This document shows positions 4,268 to 23,588 of a stretch of DNA of 27,017 nt, in pieces. The notes below the pieces were generated by a model. The model did no database searches and had not been told where the DNA came from. It saw only the letters and a program-made list of their open reading frames with translations. Source of the DNA: a virus. The position numbers and the translations under genes were made by a program. Where the stretch lies: the IMG/VR virus record IMGVR_UViG_3300020197_000128, positions 1 through 27,017 of that record; one strand, given 5' to 3'. How positions within the stretch are numbered: the stretch's first letter is position 1; each line of letters starts with the position of its first letter.

Positions 4268-4909
4268 ATGAACGAAGCATTTGAAAAGGCTTGGGAAAAA
4301 TTCCAGAAAGCTCTGGCCAAGAGAGCCATTCGCACAATGACGAAAAATGAAATTCAATTGATTTGGGATTTAATCCAAGAGATAAAGCCTAAAGCCATGT
4401 TGGAACTTGGCGGACAACATGGCCACTCAGGGCTTGTCTTTTCTGATGCCATGAAAAACGTAGGCGGTCTATTTATTACCGTTGAATTAGGTGCGTGCCC
4501 GGAGAATAACTACCCGCCAGAAAGTTGCGGCACTTTAGAATTCCTTCCAGACGACGATCCCTCGATCATCAAGGTTTGGGGAAATGCCGAAAAGAAATTG
4601 CCAGAATTACTTCAAAAATATCCAATCGAATTGGTTTTCCATGATTGTGCCCATACTTGGGATCACGTCGAATTTTGCGTCAAAACAATTCTGGACTACG
4701 ACCCAAAAATCACGCAAATGTGCCACGATTGTGCAGAAGGAATGTGGAAGCCAGATGTAGAAACAAAATATGGATATATCTGTGCCGAGCGACCCGTATT
4801 CGATAAGTATTTTTTGAATAATCCTAATTACAAATATAAAATATTTGAGGAGAAATATGGAGTTGGAATAGCCACCTACAATGGGACGCAAAAAGAAATT
4901 AATCAATAA
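4268..4909 (+). CDS. class I SAM-dependent methyltransferase-like protein
   Basis: A 213-aa protein with a Rossmann-type methyltransferase layout: motif I MLELGGQHGHSG (44-55), an acidic residue ending strand 2 (VELG, 72-75) and a motif IV-like VFHDCAHTWDHV (123-134). This resembles the Methyltransf_24 / cephalosporin-hydroxylase-like group whose members modify sugars or small molecules. Glycosyltransferases elsewhere in the window would fit a role in glycan decoration, but the substrate cannot be read from sequence. The 3' end overlaps the HNH gene by 29 nt. The ribosome binding site is weak (GGATC). Confidence 0.78.
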   Translation: MNEAFEKAWEKFQKALAKRAIRTMTKNEIQLIWDLIQEIKPKAMLELGGQHGHSGLVFSDAMKNVGGLFITVELGACPENNYPPESCGTLEFLPDDDPSIIKVWGNAEKKLPELLQKYPIELVFHDCAHTWDHVEFCVKTILDYDPKITQMCHDCAEGMWKPDVETKYGYICAERPVFDKYFLNNPNYKYKIFEEKYGVGIATYNGTQKEINQ

Positions 4910-6123: not shown

Positions 6124-6634
6124 AATTGTCAGGATAATTGTGTAAATCGGCCACAACCTTTTCTTGCCCCGCAATAATATCGTACATCGCCTTAATGACT
6201 GAGCCGTGTGAAACAACGAGCAGCTTTGGATGATCTTCTTCCAAAATATAATGTCGCATTCGGCTGACGAATTCATCCTCATTTTCCATAAAGAAATGAA
6301 AATCTTCTTCGTGATGCCAATGGAAATGATTGTATTCAAGCTTTCTATTTACGACTTTACATTCGTCGTAACTCATCATGATTTCTCTGGGACCGGACTT
6401 AACTTGAAAGTCGATGCCAGTTAAGCTGTGAATAATGTCGGAAGTTTGCAAGCAGCGATGATAAGGTGAAGTAATACCAACAAATTCATGTATATCTGGA
6501 ATATGATCCCTAAGAAATCTACCTGTTTTAACCGCTTGTTCTACTCCCCGTGGAGTTAATTCACTATCCAGATTTGTTGTAAGTTTGATGTTGTAGTGGC
6601 TTTCTCCGTGCCTCACGAAAATATAATCTTTCAT
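6062..6634 (-). CDS. histidine phosphatase superfamily (phosphoglycerate-mutase-like) protein
   Basis: A 190-aa protein with the RHGE signature at 8-11 (catalytic His9), LTPRG at 26-30, an acid candidate in GPRE (81-84) and the second histidine in VVSHGS (140-145). This is the branch-1 histidine phosphatase fold, which moves phosphate through a phosphohistidine; substrates range from sugar phosphates to nucleotides and proteins and cannot be told here. Its ATG overlaps the stop of the upstream DDAH-type gene (ATGA), so they form one translation unit and may act in one pathway. The last 20 codons were copied to 5188-5250. Confidence 0.9.
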   Translation of the reverse strand: MKDYIFVRHGESHYNIKLTTNLDSELTPRGVEQAVKTGRFLRDHIPDIHEFVGITSPYHRCLQTSDIIHSLTGIDFQVKSGPREIMMSYDECKVVNRKLEYNHFHWHHEEDFHFFMENEDEFVSRMRHYILEEDHPKLLVVSHGSVIKAMYDIIAGQEKVVADLHNYPDNCSVAYIQNQKTVHWNHLPWA

Positions 6635-7440
6635 TCAAATTCATCCAATCTCAAAGTGAGACACTTACAGGCACCACCCGCTTTTATAAACTCTGACATA
6701 TCAATATGATACACTTCGTAGCCCAATCTTTCAAGCTGTTTGTAGGTGTTTTCGCAACCACTTGGCATTACAATTTTGTTTCCTAAGCAAACAGCATTGC
6801 ACGCAAATTTCTTTGCATCTTCTTCACAAACATTGATGTAATCTAAAGTATTTTCAATCTTTTGTGCAATGTCTTGAGAAAAAGCTGGAAGGTATGTCAA
6901 TACAAAGCCATCTTTCAAAGGACAAAAACAAGTGTCAAGATGATAAAAATAAGGATCGACTAAACGCATAGAATGAATTGTCATTCTGCCAAGATTTAAT
7001 CTAACTTCTTCATCTTCGCAAAGAGCCATTTGATGGGAGCGAAATCCATGTCCTGCATAAAGATGATGATTACAAGAAAAAAGGGCATCGCCTGCCCCTT
7101 CAAAGAAATTTTTTACTTCGATTGTTTTGAATCCATTTTGTTCAAACCAAACTTTATAAAGTTGAGTTTCTGGGCGACGTTCTGGGTGGAAGAATTTTGA
7201 TAAATAAGCTGTATCTTTATAAATCAGAGCAGCATTCGCTGTGAAAACAATATCGGGCAAATTTAGCTGACCTTCCATCTCAAATATTTCTGCACCAAGT
7301 TCCTTCAGCATATTAACTAAATCTTCCCATTGACGTATGGCAAGTTGTGTGTCAACAAAAATTTCTTTGGGCTTCATCCAAGGATTGATTGAATAAGTTA
7401 CATCATAATAACTTGGTTTACACATAAGAATTTTTGCCAT
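6631..7440 (-). CDS. DDAH / arginine-deiminase-type amidinohydrolase (guanidino-modifying enzyme)
   Basis: A 269-aa protein with the pentein-fold signature of dimethylarginine dimethylaminohydrolase and relatives: PDIVFTANA (62-70), FFEGAGD (112-118), H167-x-D169 in YHLDTCFCPL, and the catalytic Cys260 in GGACKCLTL. Family enzymes hydrolyse guanidino groups of arginine, methylarginine or related compounds through a Cys thiouronium intermediate. Length (about 255-275) is normal and all catalytic positions are present, so it should be active; the exact substrate is not readable. I prefer the ATG at 7440 (GGAAC box 5 nt upstream) over the one at 7452. It is coupled to the histidine phosphatase by an ATGA overlap. 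Confidence 0.87.
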   Translation of the reverse strand: MAKILMCKPSYYDVTYSINPWMKPKEIFVDTQLAIRQWEDLVNMLKELGAEIFEMEGQLNLPDIVFTANAALIYKDTAYLSKFFHPERRPETQLYKVWFEQNGFKTIEVKNFFEGAGDALFSCNHHLYAGHGFRSHQMALCEDEEVRLNLGRMTIHSMRLVDPYFYHLDTCFCPLKDGFVLTYLPAFSQDIAQKIENTLDYINVCEEDAKKFACNAVCLGNKIVMPSGCENTYKQLERLGYEVYHIDMSEFIKAGGACKCLTLRLDEFE

Positions 7441-7475
7441 ATTTTGTTCCATAACAAAATTTCACTAATATAATT

Positions 7476-8727: not shown

Positions 8728-8772
8728 AAAATTGATATACTTTACCAGTTTTTGTGTAAGAGAACCAATAAA

Positions 8773-9669
8773 ATGAAAAACTTCTTGTCGGTGAAACAAC
8801 TGGACCGTGACAAGATTGAAAAACTACTAAATTCGGCAATGGAAATCGAAAATACGTTCCATGCACACCCTCACTTCCGGTTCGACCAATCGGATAAGAC
8901 AATGGCTTCTTTCTTTGGTGAAGCCTCTACTCGAACAAGACTTTCTTTTGAAAGAGCCATGCATTGGCTCGGCGGATCGGTAATCACAGCAGCAGACGCT
9001 TCGACATCTTCTTCTCTAAGGAAAGGCGAAAGTATCCGTGATACACTTTATACCCTTTCCCAATATTCAGATGTAATTGTCTTTCGTCACCCGGATGAAA
9101 ATTGGGTTAAAGACGCAGATGCATCATCAGTGCCAATCATAAATGCTGGAAATGGCAGCGACGAACATCCCACTCAAGCGATGTTGGATTTGTTGACGAT
9201 CCACAAAAAATTCGGTCGCACATCAAATCTCAAATTCCTTTTCTGCGGCGATTTGCGTCATAGCCGCACAGTAAAATCACTGATTCAGCTTCTAAAACTA
9301 TACGACAATAATCAGTTTTTGTTGTGCCCTGCGAAGCATCCAGAATACAGCTTTGACTATCAAGAAAATGATGGGTCATATGTAGACAATGTGGCTGACG
9401 TATCCGATGCCGACGTAATTTACATGACTCGAATCCAAGACGAACGATTTCCGGGCATCGACACCAAAACCTTAAAATTTCCCATTTTAACAAGAAAATT
9501 TGTAGAGAATTTAGGTCAAAACGCAATAATCTTACATCCTCTTCCGAGGCGTGGAGAAATACATACCGATGTAGATGAGGATTATAGAGCCGTTTACAAA
9601 GACAAACAAATAAGAAACGGATTATATATAAGGATAGCAATATTAAAGGAATTACTAAGTCATGTTTAA
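8773..9669 (+). CDS. pyrB: aspartate carbamoyltransferase, catalytic chain
   Basis: A 298-aa protein with all main ATCase motifs: carbamoyl-phosphate site STRTR (52-56), the 80s-loop Ser/Lys (SLRKGES, Lys84), HPTQ (132-135), GDLRHSRTV (159-167), the TRIQDERF aspartate-side segment and HPLPR near the C-terminus. It would condense carbamoyl phosphate with aspartate, the first committed step of pyrimidine synthesis. Length is normal (about 300-310) and nothing is missing. I prefer ATG at 8773 (AAGAGA about 10 nt upstream) to the TTG at 8752. No regulatory chain (PyrI) is nearby. The stop overlaps the next start by 8 nt. A host-derived metabolic gene; with dCMP deaminase it points to pyrimidine supply. 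Confidence 0.95.
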   Translation: MKNFLSVKQLDRDKIEKLLNSAMEIENTFHAHPHFRFDQSDKTMASFFGEASTRTRLSFERAMHWLGGSVITAADASTSSSLRKGESIRDTLYTLSQYSDVIVFRHPDENWVKDADASSVPIINAGNGSDEHPTQAMLDLLTIHKKFGRTSNLKFLFCGDLRHSRTVKSLIQLLKLYDNNQFLLCPAKHPEYSFDYQENDGSYVDNVADVSDADVIYMTRIQDERFPGIDTKTLKFPILTRKFVENLGQNAIILHPLPRRGEIHTDVDEDYRAVYKDKQIRNGLYIRIAILKELLSHV

Positions 9670-12404: not shown

Positions 12405-13193
12405 ATGAAATTAGGAATAGCTTATAATTCTTTTGATGGAATTGAACTTTTAGGTTATGCAATTGAAAGCATAAGAAAGGAAGTAGATTTCATTTGTTTA
12501 ATCAAACAAGAGATGTCTTTTCATGGCAATAAAGCCGATTTAAATGACTTAGAAGCAATTGACAAATTAAAAAAATATGGTTTGGCAGATTCAATAGTCA
12601 ATTATACTCCAAATTTATCTTTGTCGTCTAGAGAAAATGAAACAATTATAAGAAATTTAGGGTTAGATCAATCCATTGAGAACGGATGTTCTCATCATAT
12701 TTCGGCTGATGTGGATGAGTTTTATTTACCAAATCAATTAAAGTATGCAAAAGAAGCTGTTTTACAATTCGATTGCTCTATAGCTGAGAGTATTGATTAC
12801 TTTAAACATCCAACATGGAAAGTTGTCCCAGAACGGCGGAATTTAATTCCTCTTATTCATCCGGTTGAAAATAGATATGAAATGAATTTAAAATTCCCTT
12901 TTCCTGTAGACATAACACGGCGACAAGCAAAATACGATAAATGTTTAGTATTAGACCCAGAAAAATTTATAGTTCATCACATGACTTATGTTAGAAACAA
13001 CATTCACAAAAAAGCATTAAACAATATAAATCATAAAAACGACTTAAAAAATAATCTTAATGGATTTGATAAATACAAATTAGGGGACAGATTGGTTATG
13101 CCTCCTGATTATTTGAACAGAAAAACAGTAGAAACAATAAATTTATTCGGAATTGAGGTATTAAATGGGAGCATCGTCTACGACAGGAGTTAG
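12405..13193 (+). CDS. GT2-like glycosyltransferase
   Basis: A 262-aa protein with a GT-A-like start (MKLGIAYNSFDGIELLGYAI), a charged middle, and SADVDEFYLP (100-109) containing D102-x-D104, the metal and nucleotide-sugar binding motif of this fold. It resembles the group of short glycosyltransferases with DVDEF found in phages and polysaccharide clusters. Its last 29 nt overlap the start of the following gene, so a shared transcript is likely. Substrate unknown; together with the glycosyltransferases at 18230 and 25705 and the mutase at the window end it suggests glycan decoration by the phage. Confidence 0.75.
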   Translation: MKLGIAYNSFDGIELLGYAIESIRKEVDFICLIKQEMSFHGNKADLNDLEAIDKLKKYGLADSIVNYTPNLSLSSRENETIIRNLGLDQSIENGCSHHISADVDEFYLPNQLKYAKEAVLQFDCSIAESIDYFKHPTWKVVPERRNLIPLIHPVENRYEMNLKFPFPVDITRRQAKYDKCLVLDPEKFIVHHMTYVRNNIHKKALNNINHKNDLKNNLNGFDKYKLGDRLVMPPDYLNRKTVETINLFGIEVLNGSIVYDRS

Positions 13194-13542
13194 TGGAGTC
13201 GGGGATTCAAACCAAGCAACCACAAAAGATTTATCACGTTGGGAGCTTGGCCCACAAATTCTTTTGGCGGGCATTGCGACCTCTATTGAATTAGATGTTT
13301 CTGCATCGCCACCTTCTTATGGAGGAACCGTTATACTTCCAGAACCTTTGCTTGGTTTGGGAGAAGAGCATGTTGTTCTTTTAACCACATTGAATGGCGG
13401 AGCCGCCTATATTATTGACATGAACGACGAAGATTTAGATGGCGATGACGAAGATGATCATTTCACTGATTTTACGTTTCGAACTGACAGCGATTGTGAT
13501 GTTATGTACATAGTTACAAAAGTAGGGATAAGGCCAGATTAA
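13165..13542 (+). CDS. unknown beta-rich protein, tandem copy 1, 125 aa
   Basis: Starts MGASSTTGVSGVGDSNQAT (Ser/Gly/Thr-rich, flexible), then WELGPQILLAGI and a beta-rich domain (GTVILPEPLLG, EHVVLLTTLNGGAAYIIDM), an acidic run (DEDLDGDDEDD) and a conserved end (CDVMYIVTKVGIRPD). No enzyme motif. The form (flexible start, compact beta domain, strong similarity between neighbours) suggests a virion surface or decoration protein, but this is a guess. TTGAGG is the ribosome site. The acidic insert is longer than in copy 2, indicating expansion of Asp/Glu codons after duplication. Confidence 0.72.
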   Translation: MGASSTTGVSGVGDSNQATTKDLSRWELGPQILLAGIATSIELDVSASPPSYGGTVILPEPLLGLGEEHVVLLTTLNGGAAYIIDMNDEDLDGDDEDDHFTDFTFRTDSDCDVMYIVTKVGIRPD

Positions 13543-13568
13543 AATATTATTCGGAATTGAGGTTTCAA

Positions 13569-13916
13569 ATGGGAGCATCATCTACGACAGGTGTTAGTGG
13601 GGCCGGGGATTCAAACAAGGCAACTGTGAAACATTTATCACGTTGGGCACTTGGTCCACAAATTATTTTGGCTGGCATTGCAGGTTGTCACGTAGAATCG
13701 ATTGAAGGACAATTCATCGGAACTGTTGTGTTTCCAGAACCTTTGCCCGGTTCGGGAGAAGAGCATGTTGTTGTTTTAACCACATTAAATGGCGGCACCG
13801 CTTATGTTCTTGATATGGACACTGAAAATGATCATTTCACTGGGTTCATAATTATTGCCGATAATGATTGTGATGTTATGTACATAGTTACAAAAATAGG
13901 GATAAGACCAGATTAA
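13569..13916 (+). CDS. unknown beta-rich protein, tandem copy 2, 115 aa
   Basis: Paralogue of the preceding gene, sharing MGASSTTGVSG, GPQI.LAGI, LTTLNGG and CDVMYIVTK.GIRPD. I use the ATG at 13569, which aligns with copy 1 and has TTGAGG 7 nt upstream; an earlier in-frame start would lie within that box. The middle (residues about 38-50) and the acidic loop differ most from copy 1, while the core strands are kept, so both copies seem to be maintained proteins. Function unknown. Confidence 0.72.
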   Translation: MGASSTTGVSGAGDSNKATVKHLSRWALGPQIILAGIAGCHVESIEGQFIGTVVFPEPLPGSGEEHVVVLTTLNGGTAYVLDMDTENDHFTGFIIIADNDCDVMYIVTKIGIRPD

Positions 13917-18229: not shown

Positions 18230-19108
18230 ATGCAAGCGGTTTACGTCTTGAATGAAGAGCCATTCTACATGACGATGGCCTCTTACAGCTTCCGAACTCT
18301 TAGGCAACACAATCCAACCATCCCTGTCTTAGTTTATTTTGTTGAGGATAAATGTCGTGATAGTCGTGGTATTACCAACAAAGAAACTCTCTCTCGTCAA
18401 ATCAAACTTGTCAACAAAGAAGAGTTATTTCAAATTTGTAAAGAGTTAAATATTAAACTCAAGATTTACAATGATTTGGATTTGAAAGAAGAGAAGGGGT
18501 ATTTTTCTGCACAACGAATTGTTTTTGCTGAGTGCCCTTTTGAAAGAGTGATTCTGATAGATTCGGACACTTTCATTTTTGATGACATAACGTGTTTGTT
18601 TGATATTTACAAAGATTGCGACTTCGCTGCCACAACGAATACGTTTGGCGATCACTACCCTAATACCGTTTTTACGACAACGAATTTGAAAAAAAAGTCA
18701 TTGCGTGCTTTCAATTCCGGGGTCGTTTTGTTCAACAACCATCTTTTGCGCAAGTATGGTGAGGTTGTTTACGATTATTGCATGAGTCTAAAGAAGAAAA
18801 TTCACCCTATGGGTGAGTGGGTTTATCAGGTTAGTCAAAATGCGGGAGGCCGAGAAGAATTGGCTTTTACGTTGTTTGCTCTGGATCGTGAACTGAATTA
18901 TGTGTATTTTGATTCTGCGCATGTTGAGAAGGAATTTTACCGTGGTCCGACTAAAATATTTCATACGTTATCTCACAACTGGTTGACTTTCTTTCACAAC
19001 CAATATCTCAAAATGAATGTACTCAAGGTTGTGGCTTTCCAAGCCACTGTTCAACAAGAGCGAAAGTTATTCCTACCGAGCAAACTTATCCAGAGAAAAA
19101 GACAATGA
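18230..19108 (+). CDS. GT8-type glycosyltransferase
   Basis: A 292-aa protein with a GT-A fold: start MQAVYVLNEEPFYMTM, a conserved YFSAQRIVFAE segment, VILIDSDTFIFDDI with the D111-S-D113 metal/nucleotide-sugar motif, and AFNSGVVLFNN typical of the GT8 glycogenin/galactosyltransferase-like group. It would transfer a hexose from a nucleotide sugar, onto DNA, a virion protein or a surface glycan; the acceptor cannot be told. No membrane segment. It overlaps the Nudix pseudogene start by 4 nt (ATGA). Confidence 0.88.
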   Translation: MQAVYVLNEEPFYMTMASYSFRTLRQHNPTIPVLVYFVEDKCRDSRGITNKETLSRQIKLVNKEELFQICKELNIKLKIYNDLDLKEEKGYFSAQRIVFAECPFERVILIDSDTFIFDDITCLFDIYKDCDFAATTNTFGDHYPNTVFTTTNLKKKSLRAFNSGVVLFNNHLLRKYGEVVYDYCMSLKKKIHPMGEWVYQVSQNAGGREELAFTLFALDRELNYVYFDSAHVEKEFYRGPTKIFHTLSHNWLTFFHNQYLKMNVLKVVAFQATVQQERKLFLPSKLIQRKRQ

Positions 19109-19529
19109 AAGAGTACGTTTTGGTTTATTTGAAGCCGGTGAAAGAATTGATTTCACCGGGCGAAAATCTTAATTATCGTGTTCGGACAAACATACCAGTT
19201 TTGCTTATCTTGAAAGAAAAACCGGGGCAAAAGGGACGCCTTAATTTAGTTGGCGGGAAAGTAGAAGAAGGCGAGACGCCAGAAAAAGCGGCCCACAGAG
19301 AATTAAAAGAAGAAGCTGGATGGCTCGCCGCCGATATGAAGAAACAGAAAAAGTTGAATGGTATACATGGAATGATGCGAAAAATGACTATCGCCTGATG
19401 CCGAATTTGCGTATAATTATCCCATTACTACATACAGAAACAAAGGGCTGGCGGATTGTTGATCAGGAATCGAGCGTAGGCGTTGATTGTCACAAGATTT
19501 CAGTTGAGTTGCCTTTTATAAATGGATGA
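19105..19529 (+). pseudogene. Nudix hydrolase gene, disrupted by deletion/frameshift
   Basis: The first frame (19105) encodes an N-terminal Nudix half with the box GGKVEEGE...RELKEEAG (residues 50-72). Right after the box the frame turns into unrelated sequence and stops at 19398. A second frame starting at ATG 19320 continues with family-like sequence (RYEETEKVEWYTWNDAKNDY, then LRIIIPLLH). A normal Nudix fold needs about 20 more residues between the box and that segment, so a deletion near 19320 removed part and shifted the frame. The catalytic box is intact but the folded protein should not form. Intact relatives clean up oxidised or non-canonical nucleotides or NAD derivatives. Confidence 0.8.
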
Positions 19530-19532
19530 AAA

Positions 19533-21062
19533 ATGCGTGAATTAACTCCCGAAGAGCAAGCAAAACTTGAGTTGCTAACGGACCCAGACGTTACCAAAAC
19601 CAAATTTGCTTGGGATGAAACTTTTCAAAAGAAATTGCTGGGGATGCTTTTAACAGATCAGTTCATGCTTGTTCAGAGTGTAGATAAGATCAAACCAATC
19701 TATTTTTCAAGCGAAGCCCACGTTACGATTTGTGGGCTTCTTTTTGAATATTTTGCAAAACACCACACAGTTCCAGAAAGATTTATTCTCCATCAAGAGC
19801 TTCAAGATAAGCTAAAAGATCGAGAAAAAGCAATTCAAATCTATTACACAGGCGAACTTCATACTCTTTACGAGTATTATGTTCCCGGTTTAGATACCAG
19901 AGAATATTTGCTTGATAAAGTCACTTACTTTGCCAAAGTTCAGGCAATTAAAGTGGCTTTCCATAATTGCTTGGAAAAGATGAATGAGGCTCCCGAAGAT
20001 GAGAAAACATGGGGCTTTGTTTACGAAGAAATGCGTCAGGCGATGACGATTGACCGGCATTATGAGCCGGGTCTTGAGTATTTCATAAATATTCAAGAAA
20101 TGTTTAATCGTATGGATAAACGCTATGAAGGTTTAGACCGATTTACTTCATCCTTTGAAAGCATTGATAACGCCCTAACGGGCGGTGGTTTATTTCCGGG
20201 CCAGATTGGAGCATGGATTGGCTTGCCCGGCACAGGCAAATCTCTCGCTCTCGTTAAAGCAGCCGTGGCCAATGTTTTATTGGGCCATAAAGTTTTGTAT
20301 TTAACAATGGAAATGGATGAGGTAGGCATCGGGCAACGATTTACCTCTCAATTCACCAAATTAGACATTAACCTTCTTCGTCAAAACAAAGACGAGATTA
20401 TAAGAACTATTGAGGAATTTGGGAAAGACAAAGATGATAAAAATCAACTCATTATCAAACAATTCCCCGGTGGCCAGATTGATGTGAATGGTATCCGGGC
20501 ATATTATGCTCAGTTGGGGCTTCGAGGTTGGAAACCCAATTTGTTAATTATTGACTACGTTGGTGAAATGAAGGATGATCCTTCAGTTAAAAAGTATGAG
20601 TCGGCATATCGTATATTGCGTGACTTGAGAGGATTTGGTGTAGAGAAACAACACGGCACACTAACTTGTGTGCAACCTAATGCCAGTGCCGCAAAACTCG
20701 AAATTAGTCAATATATTGATGAGAGCAATATTGGTACGTCGTTCGACCAGTTTAAACCATTGGATGCTTTCTGGTCGATCAACCAACAGGGTCGTGAGAA
20801 AGACGCTGAAGTTGGTCGTGGCTTTATCATCAAACACCGTGATGGTTCTTCTCGCTTTCCGTTTAAGATTGGCTTTGATTATCGCATGGGAACCTTGGAT
20901 ATATTCGAGATTTCAAAAGAGCGTTACGCCAATCAAATGACCAATGCTGCCGAGAAGAAACAAGACGAATTTGTGCTGGATAAGTACACACCGTCCAAAA
21001 AGAAGAAAGAGAAAAAGAATAGTATCATCGACCCTGAAGACGAAGAATTGGGAGGTCAATAA
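19533..21062 (+). CDS. dnaB: DnaB/gp41-type replicative helicase
   Basis: A 509-aa protein with a helical N-terminal domain (about 25-170), linker helix, and RecA-type C-terminal domain: Walker A GLPGTGKS (230-237), a switch residue region LYLTMEMDE (256-263), Walker B LLIIDYVGEM (337-346) and TCVQPNASAAK with the sensor glutamine. This is the superfamily 4 hexameric helicase that unwinds DNA 5' to 3' at the fork, working with the polymerase at 16169. The C-terminal tail is charged (KKKKEKK, then acidic). Start ATG 19533, with TGGATGA before it. The stop overlaps the next start by one base (TAATG). Confidence 0.93.
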   Translation: MRELTPEEQAKLELLTDPDVTKTKFAWDETFQKKLLGMLLTDQFMLVQSVDKIKPIYFSSEAHVTICGLLFEYFAKHHTVPERFILHQELQDKLKDREKAIQIYYTGELHTLYEYYVPGLDTREYLLDKVTYFAKVQAIKVAFHNCLEKMNEAPEDEKTWGFVYEEMRQAMTIDRHYEPGLEYFINIQEMFNRMDKRYEGLDRFTSSFESIDNALTGGGLFPGQIGAWIGLPGTGKSLALVKAAVANVLLGHKVLYLTMEMDEVGIGQRFTSQFTKLDINLLRQNKDEIIRTIEEFGKDKDDKNQLIIKQFPGGQIDVNGIRAYYAQLGLRGWKPNLLIIDYVGEMKDDPSVKKYESAYRILRDLRGFGVEKQHGTLTCVQPNASAAKLEISQYIDESNIGTSFDQFKPLDAFWSINQQGREKDAEVGRGFIIKHRDGSSRFPFKIGFDYRMGTLDIFEISKERYANQMTNAAEKKQDEFVLDKYTPSKKKKEKKNSIIDPEDEELGGQ

Positions 21063-21583: not shown

Positions 21584-21760
21584 ATGAAGTTCCAATCAAA
21601 GATTGGCCGGATTGGCCGGATTGGATACGTTTTGAAATACTTGCGTGAGCAAGGCGTAGAAGCCCCTTGTGTTTTCATCATGAATGGTGTAGCATTTAAT
21701 TTGTCAAATAGAAAACGACGCCAACTTTTTGGCAAGACTTTGTTTTTGGAATCATTTTGA
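21584..21760 (+). pseudogene. chimeric 58-aa ORF carrying the copied tail of the nuclease-like gene
   Basis: ATG at 21584 with GAGGGCTGAG upstream. Residues about 31-58 (CVFIMNGVAFNLSNRKRRQ and following) are nearly identical to the C-terminus of the nuclease-like protein at 23102, from a near-identical DNA stretch of about 85 bp. The front part (MKFQSKIGRIGRIGYVLKYL) has a different origin and includes two and a half copies of the 9-bp repeat ATTGGCCGG. The nuclease core (Asp, Glu, His residues) is missing, so this cannot be an active enzyme. Most likely a truncated duplicate of the 23102 gene whose 5' part was deleted. Confidence 0.6.
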
Positions 21761-22156: not shown

Positions 22157-22690
22157 ATGAAGAAGGTAAAAGTACAACTGGTAAGTATTGCCCCGATGCT
22201 TATGAACAAGCGACAAATGATTTCGGAAGAAGCGGCCCTCGCTAAAAAGAAATCGGATGTGATTGACCCCAAAGTAGATGCCGAAAATAAATCACATCAT
22301 GATCCCAAAATCGGGTATTACATTGCTTCGGATCAAATCGAAGGATGTATGCGTGAGGCAGGCAAGAACTTGAAGAAAGGCCGTGGCAGCCTCAAAAAGA
22401 CAATTCTTTCTTCTGTCTTTTGTGACGACGAAAAAATTCCTCTTGGTCGAAAAGACTATGACGAAATAGATCGTCGCTTTTGTACGCTTCCAAGCACGGG
22501 AGCCGGTGTTCTCATCAATCGGGTCAGATTCAATAGCTGGAAGGCCAAATTTGTTTTGACCTTCGATGAGACTCGCATCAGCGAGAAAGAAGTAAAGGCT
22601 TGCCTCGAAGAAGCCGGGGCCGTCACTGGAGTCGGCAGCTATCGACCAAAATTCGGAAGATTCAAAATTGAATCTTTTGAAGTGCAGTAA
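22157..22690 (+). CDS. conserved-looking phage protein of unknown function, 177 aa
   Basis: ATG at 22157 with a good ribosome site (AAGGAGT, 22143-22149). Features: a hydrophobic first strand with VSIAPMLMNKR, a charged loop (30-50), YIASDQIEGCMREAGKNL, and a C-terminal end with AGAVTGVGSYRPKFGRF. This start (P-M-L-M-N) and end (G-[VI]-G-x-[YW]-R-P...FGRF) recur in a phage family I recall without an established role; the glycine-rich end has some likeness to RAMP (Cas7-like) folds, which I would not claim. It is followed directly by the phased repeat array. Confidence 0.78.
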   Translation: MKKVKVQLVSIAPMLMNKRQMISEEAALAKKKSDVIDPKVDAENKSHHDPKIGYYIASDQIEGCMREAGKNLKKGRGSLKKTILSSVFCDDEKIPLGRKDYDEIDRRFCTLPSTGAGVLINRVRFNSWKAKFVLTFDETRISEKEVKACLEEAGAVTGVGSYRPKFGRFKIESFEVQ

Positions 22691-22746
22691 ATCATTATGT
22701 GATGCCATGTCATGTGATGTTTTGTGGTGTATTGTGCTGTGCTGTG

Positions 22747-22765
22747 CGACAGACTTGATCTGTCG
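22747..22765 (+). other. hairpin A, copy 1 (7-bp stem, CTTGA loop)
   Basis: CGACAGA/TCTGTCG stem followed by TTTCATT and hairpin B. No long U-run follows, so it is a weak terminator at best; copies 2 and 3 (22864-22882, 22976-22994) have the same setting. Confidence 0.85.
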
Positions 22766-22772
22766 TTTCATT

Positions 22773-22792
22773 AACCCATCAGAAAATGGGTT
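22773..22792 (+). other. hairpin B, copy 1 (7-bp stem, CAGAAA loop)
   Basis: AACCCAT/ATGGGTT stem. Identical copies at 22890-22909 and 23002-23021. Always between hairpin A and the next NNNTG tract; absent from the last two units, which lead straight into a gene. Confidence 0.85.
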
Positions 22793-23067
22793 GATGTATT
22801 GTGATGTTTTGTGATGTTTTGTCGTGCAATGTGATGCAGTGTCATGTTCTGTGCTGTGGAGTACGACAGACTTGATCTGTCGTTTCATTAACCCATCAGA
22901 AAATGGGTTGTTGTGTTGTGATGTTTTGTAATGTGATGTGATGCTCTGTGATTTACTGTTATGTTTTGTGTTGCACGATAGACTTGATCTGTCGTTTCAT
23001 TAACCCATCAGAAAATGGGTTGCTGTGCTGTAAAGTTGTGTGTTGTCGTGTGTAGTCATGTGCTGCA

Positions 23068-23092
23068 CGACAGACTTGATCTGTCGTTTTTT
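23068..23092 (+). terminator. hairpin A copy 4 with U-run, directly before a ribosome binding site
   Basis: CGACAGACTTGATCTGTCG followed by TTTTTT and then GGAG and the ATG at 23102. Hairpin plus U-run is an intrinsic-terminator form, placed in the leader of the nuclease-like gene and 2 nt after an NNNTG tract; this is the layout of a leader attenuator. It could also simply end the upstream transcript. Confidence 0.6.
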
Positions 23093-23101
23093 GGAGTTTA
23101 T

Positions 23102-23512
23102 ATGGACGACATAGAAACAATTTTCTCCAAAAAAGATGTAATCACAGAAGAAGCGAGAGCTTACAAGGCTTACATCGAGAATACTTGGGGAAATTTATTT
23201 CGAGTTGAACTCGAAATACCTTTAAAAGAATTATTCCCCAAGCCAACAAATACCGGCCTTAATCATATATGGAAATATGGCAGTGCCGACGTGGTAGTTT
23301 ACCGGGGTGACAAGTTAGTTGCCATATTTGAGCCGGGCGGCTCTCATCATTTGAATGACGAAAAACAAATGAAAAACGACAGAAGAAAATGGATGCTCTG
23401 CAAAAAGAATGGAATCCCTTGTACATTCATTATGAATGGTGTAGCATTTAATTTGTCAAATAGAAAAAGACGCCAACTTTTTGGCAAGGCTTTATTTTTG
23501 GAATCATTGTAA
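23102..23512 (+). CDS. PD-(D/E)xK-like nuclease-fold protein, 136 aa
   Basis: ATG at 23102 with TTTTGGAG upstream; an in-frame extension into the repeat array is not credible. The core ADVVVYRGDKLVAIFEPGGS (Asp63, Glu77), then HHLNDEKQMKNDRRKW and a last strand CTFIMNGVAF, is the beta-beta-alpha-beta order of small restriction-like nuclease domains (DUF2726/DUF559/Vsr-like), with D..E-x-G instead of the canonical E-x-K and a His pair. It may be a nuclease or a degenerate DNA-binding relative. The last 85 bp exist as a second copy at 21675-21760. The leader carries an NNNTG tract and hairpin A. Confidence 0.8.
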   Translation: MDDIETIFSKKDVITEEARAYKAYIENTWGNLFRVELEIPLKELFPKPTNTGLNHIWKYGSADVVVYRGDKLVAIFEPGGSHHLNDEKQMKNDRRKWMLCKKNGIPCTFIMNGVAFNLSNRKRRQLFGKALFLESL

Positions 23513-23580
23513 TGTGGCGTCATGTGTTGTTATGCAATGTGTTGTCATGTCCTGTTGTGTACGATAGATTTAATCTGTCG
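23505..23580 (+). repeat. fifth NNNTG tract with diverged hairpin A, leader of dCMP deaminase gene
   Basis: Eleven pentamers (10 with TG in phase, 23505-23559), again 2 nt before a hairpin, CGATAGATTTAATCTGTCG (23562-23580). The hairpin loop and one stem base have changed but pairing is kept through a G-U pair. The tract begins inside the last codons of the nuclease-like gene. Confidence 0.85.
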
Positions 23581-23588
23581 TTTATTTT
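23562..23588 (+). terminator. diverged hairpin A with U-rich tail before the dCMP deaminase ribosome site
   Basis: Stem CGATAGA/TCTGTCG, then TTTATTTT and GGAG, ATG at 23598. Same architecture as at 23068, so the arrangement tract + hairpin + U-run + ribosome site occurs before two unrelated genes. Confidence 0.55.

Follow-up and report, generated by a model that had tools for sequence, protein, structure and literature searches.

A probable phage-encoded VIPR system with a TGY core: phased YNNTG tracts downstream of a Vipr homologue in an uncultivated phage

The window analysed here, the whole 27,017-nucleotide stretch of IMG/VR virus record IMGVR_UViG_3300020197_000128, contains five tracts of pentamers with TG in a common phase, each running into a conserved hairpin, and the question it raises is what such an arrangement serves. 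In attenuation of the Bacillus trp operon a protein oligomer, TRAP, is placed on phased RNA triplets near a hairpin, and a preliminary description of this DNA proposed a ring protein of a similar type. The evidence points instead to a phage-encoded VIPR system in which each of the five tracts forms the guide portion of a vrRNA, a reading to which we assign a probability of about 0.94.

The phasing, previously counted as 52 of 57 NNNTG pentamers, is real. On recounting, TG falls in phase in 51 of 56 consecutive pentamers, distributed over five tracts on the + strand, whereas 5000 dinucleotide-preserving shuffles of the same five tracts gave a mean of 25.0 TG-phased pentamers (sd 2.0, maximum 33). 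The autocorrelation that had been suggested as a check shows sharp peaks at lags 5 and 10, these TG-TG distances being found for 49 and 42 of 78 TGs, respectively, against 1 at lag 4 and 0 at lag 6. The base directly after TG is a pyrimidine in all 56 pentamers, so that the repeat unit is YNNTG and only two bases are free, not the three originally described; in the window pentamers these two positions have entropies of 1.86 and 1.80 bits. It is this pyrimidine constraint, leaving two rather than three free bases, that led to the identification of the system as VIPR. A search of both strands of the 27 kb window gave no further TG-phased tracts, Rfam matched neither the tracts nor the hairpins in the window and in 16 loci, and no DNA similarity to annotated phages was found.

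A 2026 preprint introduced VIPR (Viral Interference Programmable Repeat) as the first RNA-guided system whose code is not contiguous, and as one from which CRISPR may have descended (PMC13142463). As described there, the system comprises a phage-borne RAMP protein, Vipr, and guide RNAs, the vrRNAs, which consist of 9-16 YNNGG repeats and a folded 3' tail; the NN pairs recognise double-stranded DNA, leaving one base unread between consecutive pairs, and competing phages and satellites are repressed, the targets being mainly satellites and prophages (PMC13142463). The fixed triplet is given as GGY "or a related consensus" (PMC13142463, fig. S17), and TGY may already be among the related consensuses of the supplement. 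VIPR is thus an already known kind of system, to which the window adds a member with a TGY core, extending it to this core in an uncultivated phage; the traits found are a RAMP homologue with a G-loop, 9-14 pentamers per tract, a structured 3' tail and a viral record.

The gene upstream of the tracts (vipr, 22157-22690, + strand) encodes a 177 aa protein of family phrog_4652 (E 1.2e-21) that, judged by sequence, is a homologue of Vipr, an ancestral CRISPR RAMP. Searched alone with phmmer, the protein matches PDB 36pp_D, "SUSP1 Vipr protein", with an E-value of 8e-14, and a profile of the Vipr family gives one strong match to a solved structure, the same chain D of 36pp (E 5.6e-42). Its closest annotated relatives belong to SUSP1, SUSP2 and their kin, with 89% of the protein covered, and a G-rich loop, GVGSYRPKFGRF, lies close to its C-terminus. 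An AlphaFold2 model (pLDDT 84.4) has the predicted fold of a RAMP, closest to Csm3 of the Csm3/Cas7 group (Foldseek E 2.5e-7; VIA Z 12.7 over 158 residues at 4.2 A).

All elements of the locus lie on the + strand, in the order vipr, four putative vrRNAs, a small ORF and a fifth vrRNA, and the array is surrounded by replication and nucleotide-metabolism genes. The vrRNA1 guide tract (22695-22744) begins 4 nt past the vipr stop codon and has 10 repeats, all with TG and all with the pyrimidine, whose free bases read TA GA CA CA GA TT GG AT GC GC; its tail, a copy of hairpin A (22746-22766), is GCGACAGA cttga TCTGTCGT. The first copy of a second hairpin, B (22770-22795; ATTAACCCAT cagaaa ATGGGTTGAT), occupies the interval between vrRNA1 and vrRNA2, and its 20-nt core is exact in a relative, contig L003. 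The vrRNA2 tract (22792-22861; 14 repeats, 13/14 TG, 14/14 Y) carries the code GA AT GA TT GA TT CG AA GA AG CA TC GC GG and is followed by hairpin A at 22863-22883 (ACGACAGA cttga TCTGTCGT) and the second copy of hairpin B at 22890-22909. In vrRNA3 (22909-22973; 13 repeats, 12/13 TG, 13/13 Y) the code is GT GT GA TT AA GA GA TC GA AC TA TT GT; a C-G to U-G change in its hairpin A (22975-22995; ACGATAGA cttga TCTGTCGT) keeps the stem, and the third copy of hairpin B lies at 23002-23021. The tract of vrRNA4 (23021-23065; 9 repeats, 7/9 TG, 9/9 Y, the same in L003) reads GC GC AA TG GT CG GT CA GC, and its hairpin A (23067-23087) precedes a run of Ts and a ribosome binding site, GGAG. A 136 aa ORF, loosely nuclease-like (23102-23512), fills the interval to vrRNA5 (23510-23559; 10 repeats, 9/10 TG, 10/10 Y; AA GG CA GT TA AA GT CA CC TG), whose hairpin A (23561-23581; ACGATAGA tttaa TCTGTCGT) is followed by GGAG and the dCMP deaminase start.

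The earlier view that conserved hairpins are locked to the tracts has been confirmed, each tract running into hairpin A. This hairpin, with an 8-bp stem that survives C-G to U-G changes, is present in five copies, 3' of all five tracts, and hairpin B in three copies between units 1-4, with a 10-bp stem in the first copy. Folded alone, hairpins A and B reach -10.5 and -11.3 kcal/mol, with z scores of -3.1 and -3.4, respectively.

The closest known counterpart is the type II VIPR of Escherichia phage SUSP1 (PDB 36pp, PMC13142463). Like the window, it combines a homologous Vipr of about 20 kDa, in a phage genome, with tandem pentamers in which three bases are fixed and two are free, numbering 9-16 per guide and leading into a folded 3' tail; in both, several vrRNAs lie downstream of vipr on the same strand, as read from the GG-phased tracts in SUSP1. 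Several differences are apparent. The window triplet is TGY and not GGY, the one tested experimentally, which counts against the assignment, and the window Vipr is only about 30% identical; no vap1 follows vipr, nor was any recognised vap gene seen downstream of the window vipr, which also counts against it, a different 136 aa ORF lying inside the array. The hairpin sequences also differ, and the second hairpin, B, is found between the units. With the CRISPR RAMPs Csm3/Cas7 the window protein shares the RAMP fold, the G-rich loop and a predicted coating of the guide at a regular period, but the window period is 5 nt, not 6 nt, and fixed bases lie inside the guide. Unlike CRISPR-Cas, the window lacks a direct-repeat/spacer array, the variable part being the in-phase pentamer tract, and no other cas genes were seen among the window proteins scanned.

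Taking the published mechanism as an analogy, we expect vipr to encode a small RAMP protein whose subunits would coat the vrRNA, so that the fixed UGY bases would be held out of pairing and the two free bases presented. The NN dinucleotides would then pair with double-stranded DNA as NNxNNxNNx, each repeat passing over one target base, which would usually be the wobble base of a codon, and a competing phage or satellite bound in this way would have its transcription repressed. It is on this analogy that we infer transcription, binding, targets and repression at the window locus.

Similar arrangements were sought in other viruses by scanning viral contigs for nine in-phase TGs, which gave at least 119 stretches; many of those listed are not microsatellites, their free bases being diverse. 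Several further tract-hairpin arrays are found among the matches listed, in tandem and with hairpin sequences unlike those of the window. Among the matches listed, all tracts of a record lie on a single strand in 39 of 40 records. The proteins beside the arrays of other records resemble the phrog_4652 protein of the window, and a family search detected phrog_4652 in 30 of 39 tract records, among the matches listed, versus 1 of 50 control records, which were microsatellite records from the same scan; in the sole positive control the homologue lies inside the 5-kb stretch around the control's own tract. A Vipr family profile adds two tract records, G008 and G030, bringing the count to 32 of 39 among the matches listed, and in these 32 records the homologue is mostly beside the array. 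In the remaining 7 of 39 tract records, several of which are fragments or partly covered, a Vipr homologue was undetected, and this weighs against the VIPR reading, as does the orientation of the tracts, which in most other TG-type records lie on the strand opposite to that of the genes around them, unlike in the window and SUSP1. In bacteria and archaea, (TGNNN)11 stretches are simple repeats in 115 of 120 cases.

Elsewhere the core triplet is TGC, TGT, TGA or GTG, and nearly every array keeps three bases of the pentamer constant and leaves two free; since dozens of viral records carry such cores, the choice of triplet seems to be characteristic of a clade. If the GTG/NN, TGA/NN and TGC/NN arrays are true members, Vipr clades use different fixed triplets, and clade-specific triplets could be matched to Vipr residues.

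Some of these arrays have features of their own. In G009, G018, G020 and G021 (L250, L264, L065 and L267) GTG/NN tracts lie between a vipr-like gene and its neighbours, in intervals of ~600-800 nt, several of them immediately 5' of an opposite-strand start codon. In L042 (G014) every TGT/NN tract is placed between the arms of its own inverted repeat of ~20-25 bp, with a stem sequence that differs from unit to unit. In L092 (G030, 18631-19553), AAGCCGAG rather than a hairpin stands between the short TG-phased tracts, of which there are at least 11; TG alone looks fixed, with the third base free, and a weak Vipr homologue adjoins (E 1.7e-6). This array may represent VIPR in a form whose pentamers have three free bases or whose guides are staggered.

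The ORF inside the window array (23102-23512) raises the possibility that the target is cut rather than only repressed, the 136 aa product acting as an accessory enzyme. Its placement between vrRNA4 and vrRNA5 on the same strand and a weak similarity to Pfam DUF2726 are consistent with such a role; however, this similarity (E 0.2) is below the cut-off, a single-sequence structure model is uninformative, and no relatives were found in annotated phages or other VIPR records, besides the ORF's own 3' remnant. Being weakly nuclease-like and unlinked to other Viprs, the ORF can be called a vap gene only as a guess, and coupling to a nuclease is regarded as unlikely. Upstream of vipr, at 21664-21757, the 3' end of this ORF (23416-23508) recurs at 92% identity, in L003 as well, as either a remnant of an earlier copy or a duplication.

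If the wobble base is the one skipped, the NN pairs should resemble codon positions 1-2 on either strand, and this was examined with each record's own genes as the model and random reads from the same genomes, in 200 runs, as the control. Among the matches listed, codon positions 1-2 are the best fit for 63 of 103 vrRNAs versus 34.8 +/- 4.9 for random reads (maximum 50), or, by genome, for 22 of 33 versus 9.8 (maximum 18); in the window, sense codon positions 1-2 fit best in four of the five vrRNAs. Independent resampling of the two NN columns reproduces most of this excess, indicating that the signal is mainly the base composition of the free positions and not the pairing of bases. The statistic supports the published one-base-skip rule for TG-type guides as a set, and does so without knowledge of any target. 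It also qualifies the notion that selection acts on spacing only: the fixed bases are indeed selected, but the free bases, with their codon-position statistics, are not mere filler.

Scans of IMG/VR with 8-pair cores gave no natural target for vrRNA1, vrRNA2 or vrRNA3. The vrRNA1 core had 19 matches, none convincing, and the vrRNA2 core 6, all ending at the core. For vrRNA3 there were 103 matches, of which 96 lie in frame within genes; these genes belong to many unrelated families that have acidic peptides like V[DE]FK[DE][DE]S[DE] in common. The best match, in a tail-tube-like phage gene, covers guide pairs 1-10 of the 13 in the L003 version and was judged to be within chance because so many families were matched. 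The same tracts could be Vipr guide RNAs directed at the phage itself, and both the failure of the vrRNA1-3 scans to find a foreign target and the position of the array amid replication and nucleotide-metabolism genes would suit such self-regulation. Against it, matches in the window (27 kb of the genome) and the other sequences examined, allowing skips of 0-2 nt, were no better than those of shuffled guides, with no good 1-nt-skip match among them, and published targets are mainly satellites and prophages (PMC13142463), which makes self-regulation improbable.

The original proposal, a TRAP-like attenuator in which a ring protein on phased NUG leader repeats controls termination at hairpin A, has in its favour the phased repeats, which at two genes directly precede a hairpin that carries a U run and adjoins a ribosome binding site. 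The likeness to TRAP extends to an oligomer on phased RNA near a hairpin, and the expectation of a phage protein that oligomerises on 5-nt-phased RNA holds; its kind does not, the protein encoded upstream being a RAMP-like Vipr and no TRAP ring. The motif is YNNTG, with a fixed TGY and two free bases, and not (G/U)AG, and the free bases, given their codon-position signature, appear to carry guide information. Moreover, three of the five hairpins have no gene directly after them, the tracts of most other records cannot be leaders of flanking genes because they are antisense to them. Where hairpin A abuts a ribosome binding site the downstream genes may conceivably be attenuated, but no finding of this analysis supports it. 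A TRAP-like attenuator is very improbable, and DNA-level binding at half-turn spacing, put forward as an alternative, is not needed.

A comparison with L003, a 5.6-kb contig, shows a natural instance in which one guide has been lost and another has changed fast. The two sequences differ by 2 SNPs in ~5.3 kb of flank and by six in vrRNA3 and its tail (five of them in the guide tract), so that 6 of 8 SNPs fall within less than 90 nt, far from an even distribution (about 5e-10 by a hand estimate). Three of the six fall in NN pairs and change AC to AT, TT to CT and GT to AT, which as codons would correspond to Thr to Ile/Met, Phe/Leu to Leu and Val to Ile/Met; of the others, one keeps the pyrimidine, one is a C-G to U-G change in the stem, and one affects a TG present in L003 and lost in the window. 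L003 also lacks vrRNA2, as if it had been removed by recombination across the repeated hairpins. That the tracts are neutral microsatellites, functionless pentamer slippage products decayed by mutation, is scarcely credible: slippage does yield tandem pentamers, and near-perfect (TGNNN)n is common in genomes, but decay would erode all positions alike, whereas here the fixed bases are kept and the free positions are near random, the tracts are linked to Vipr, and the vrRNA3 SNPs change NN or keep or restore the grammar.

The strain pair bears on the question of where new VIPR guides come from, no adaptation machinery being known. It has been tentatively proposed, at less than even odds, that the window represents a VIPR lineage, reading in a UGY frame, in which guides are replaced even between near-identical strains, through unit recombination across the hairpins and through point changes that track codon-level variation of the target protein, and which may carry a nuclease within its array. 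In L423, a more distant relative with 77-85% DNA identity in blocks, vipr is broken after about residue 96 (around position 4280), there is no array, and dCMP deaminase follows shortly after; the VIPR system is thus dispensable.

Other features of the window include genes resembling dimethylarginine dimethylaminohydrolase (6631-7452) and aspartate/ornithine carbamoyltransferase (8752-9669), an unusual metabolic cargo for a phage, and two adjacent similar ORFs (13165-13542 and 13557-13916; MGASSTTGVSG...), probably a tandem duplication. In addition, a third tRNA-like gene of 103 nt (199-301), matched by Rfam and unreported by ARAGORN, lies near tRNA-Ser and tRNA-Tyr.
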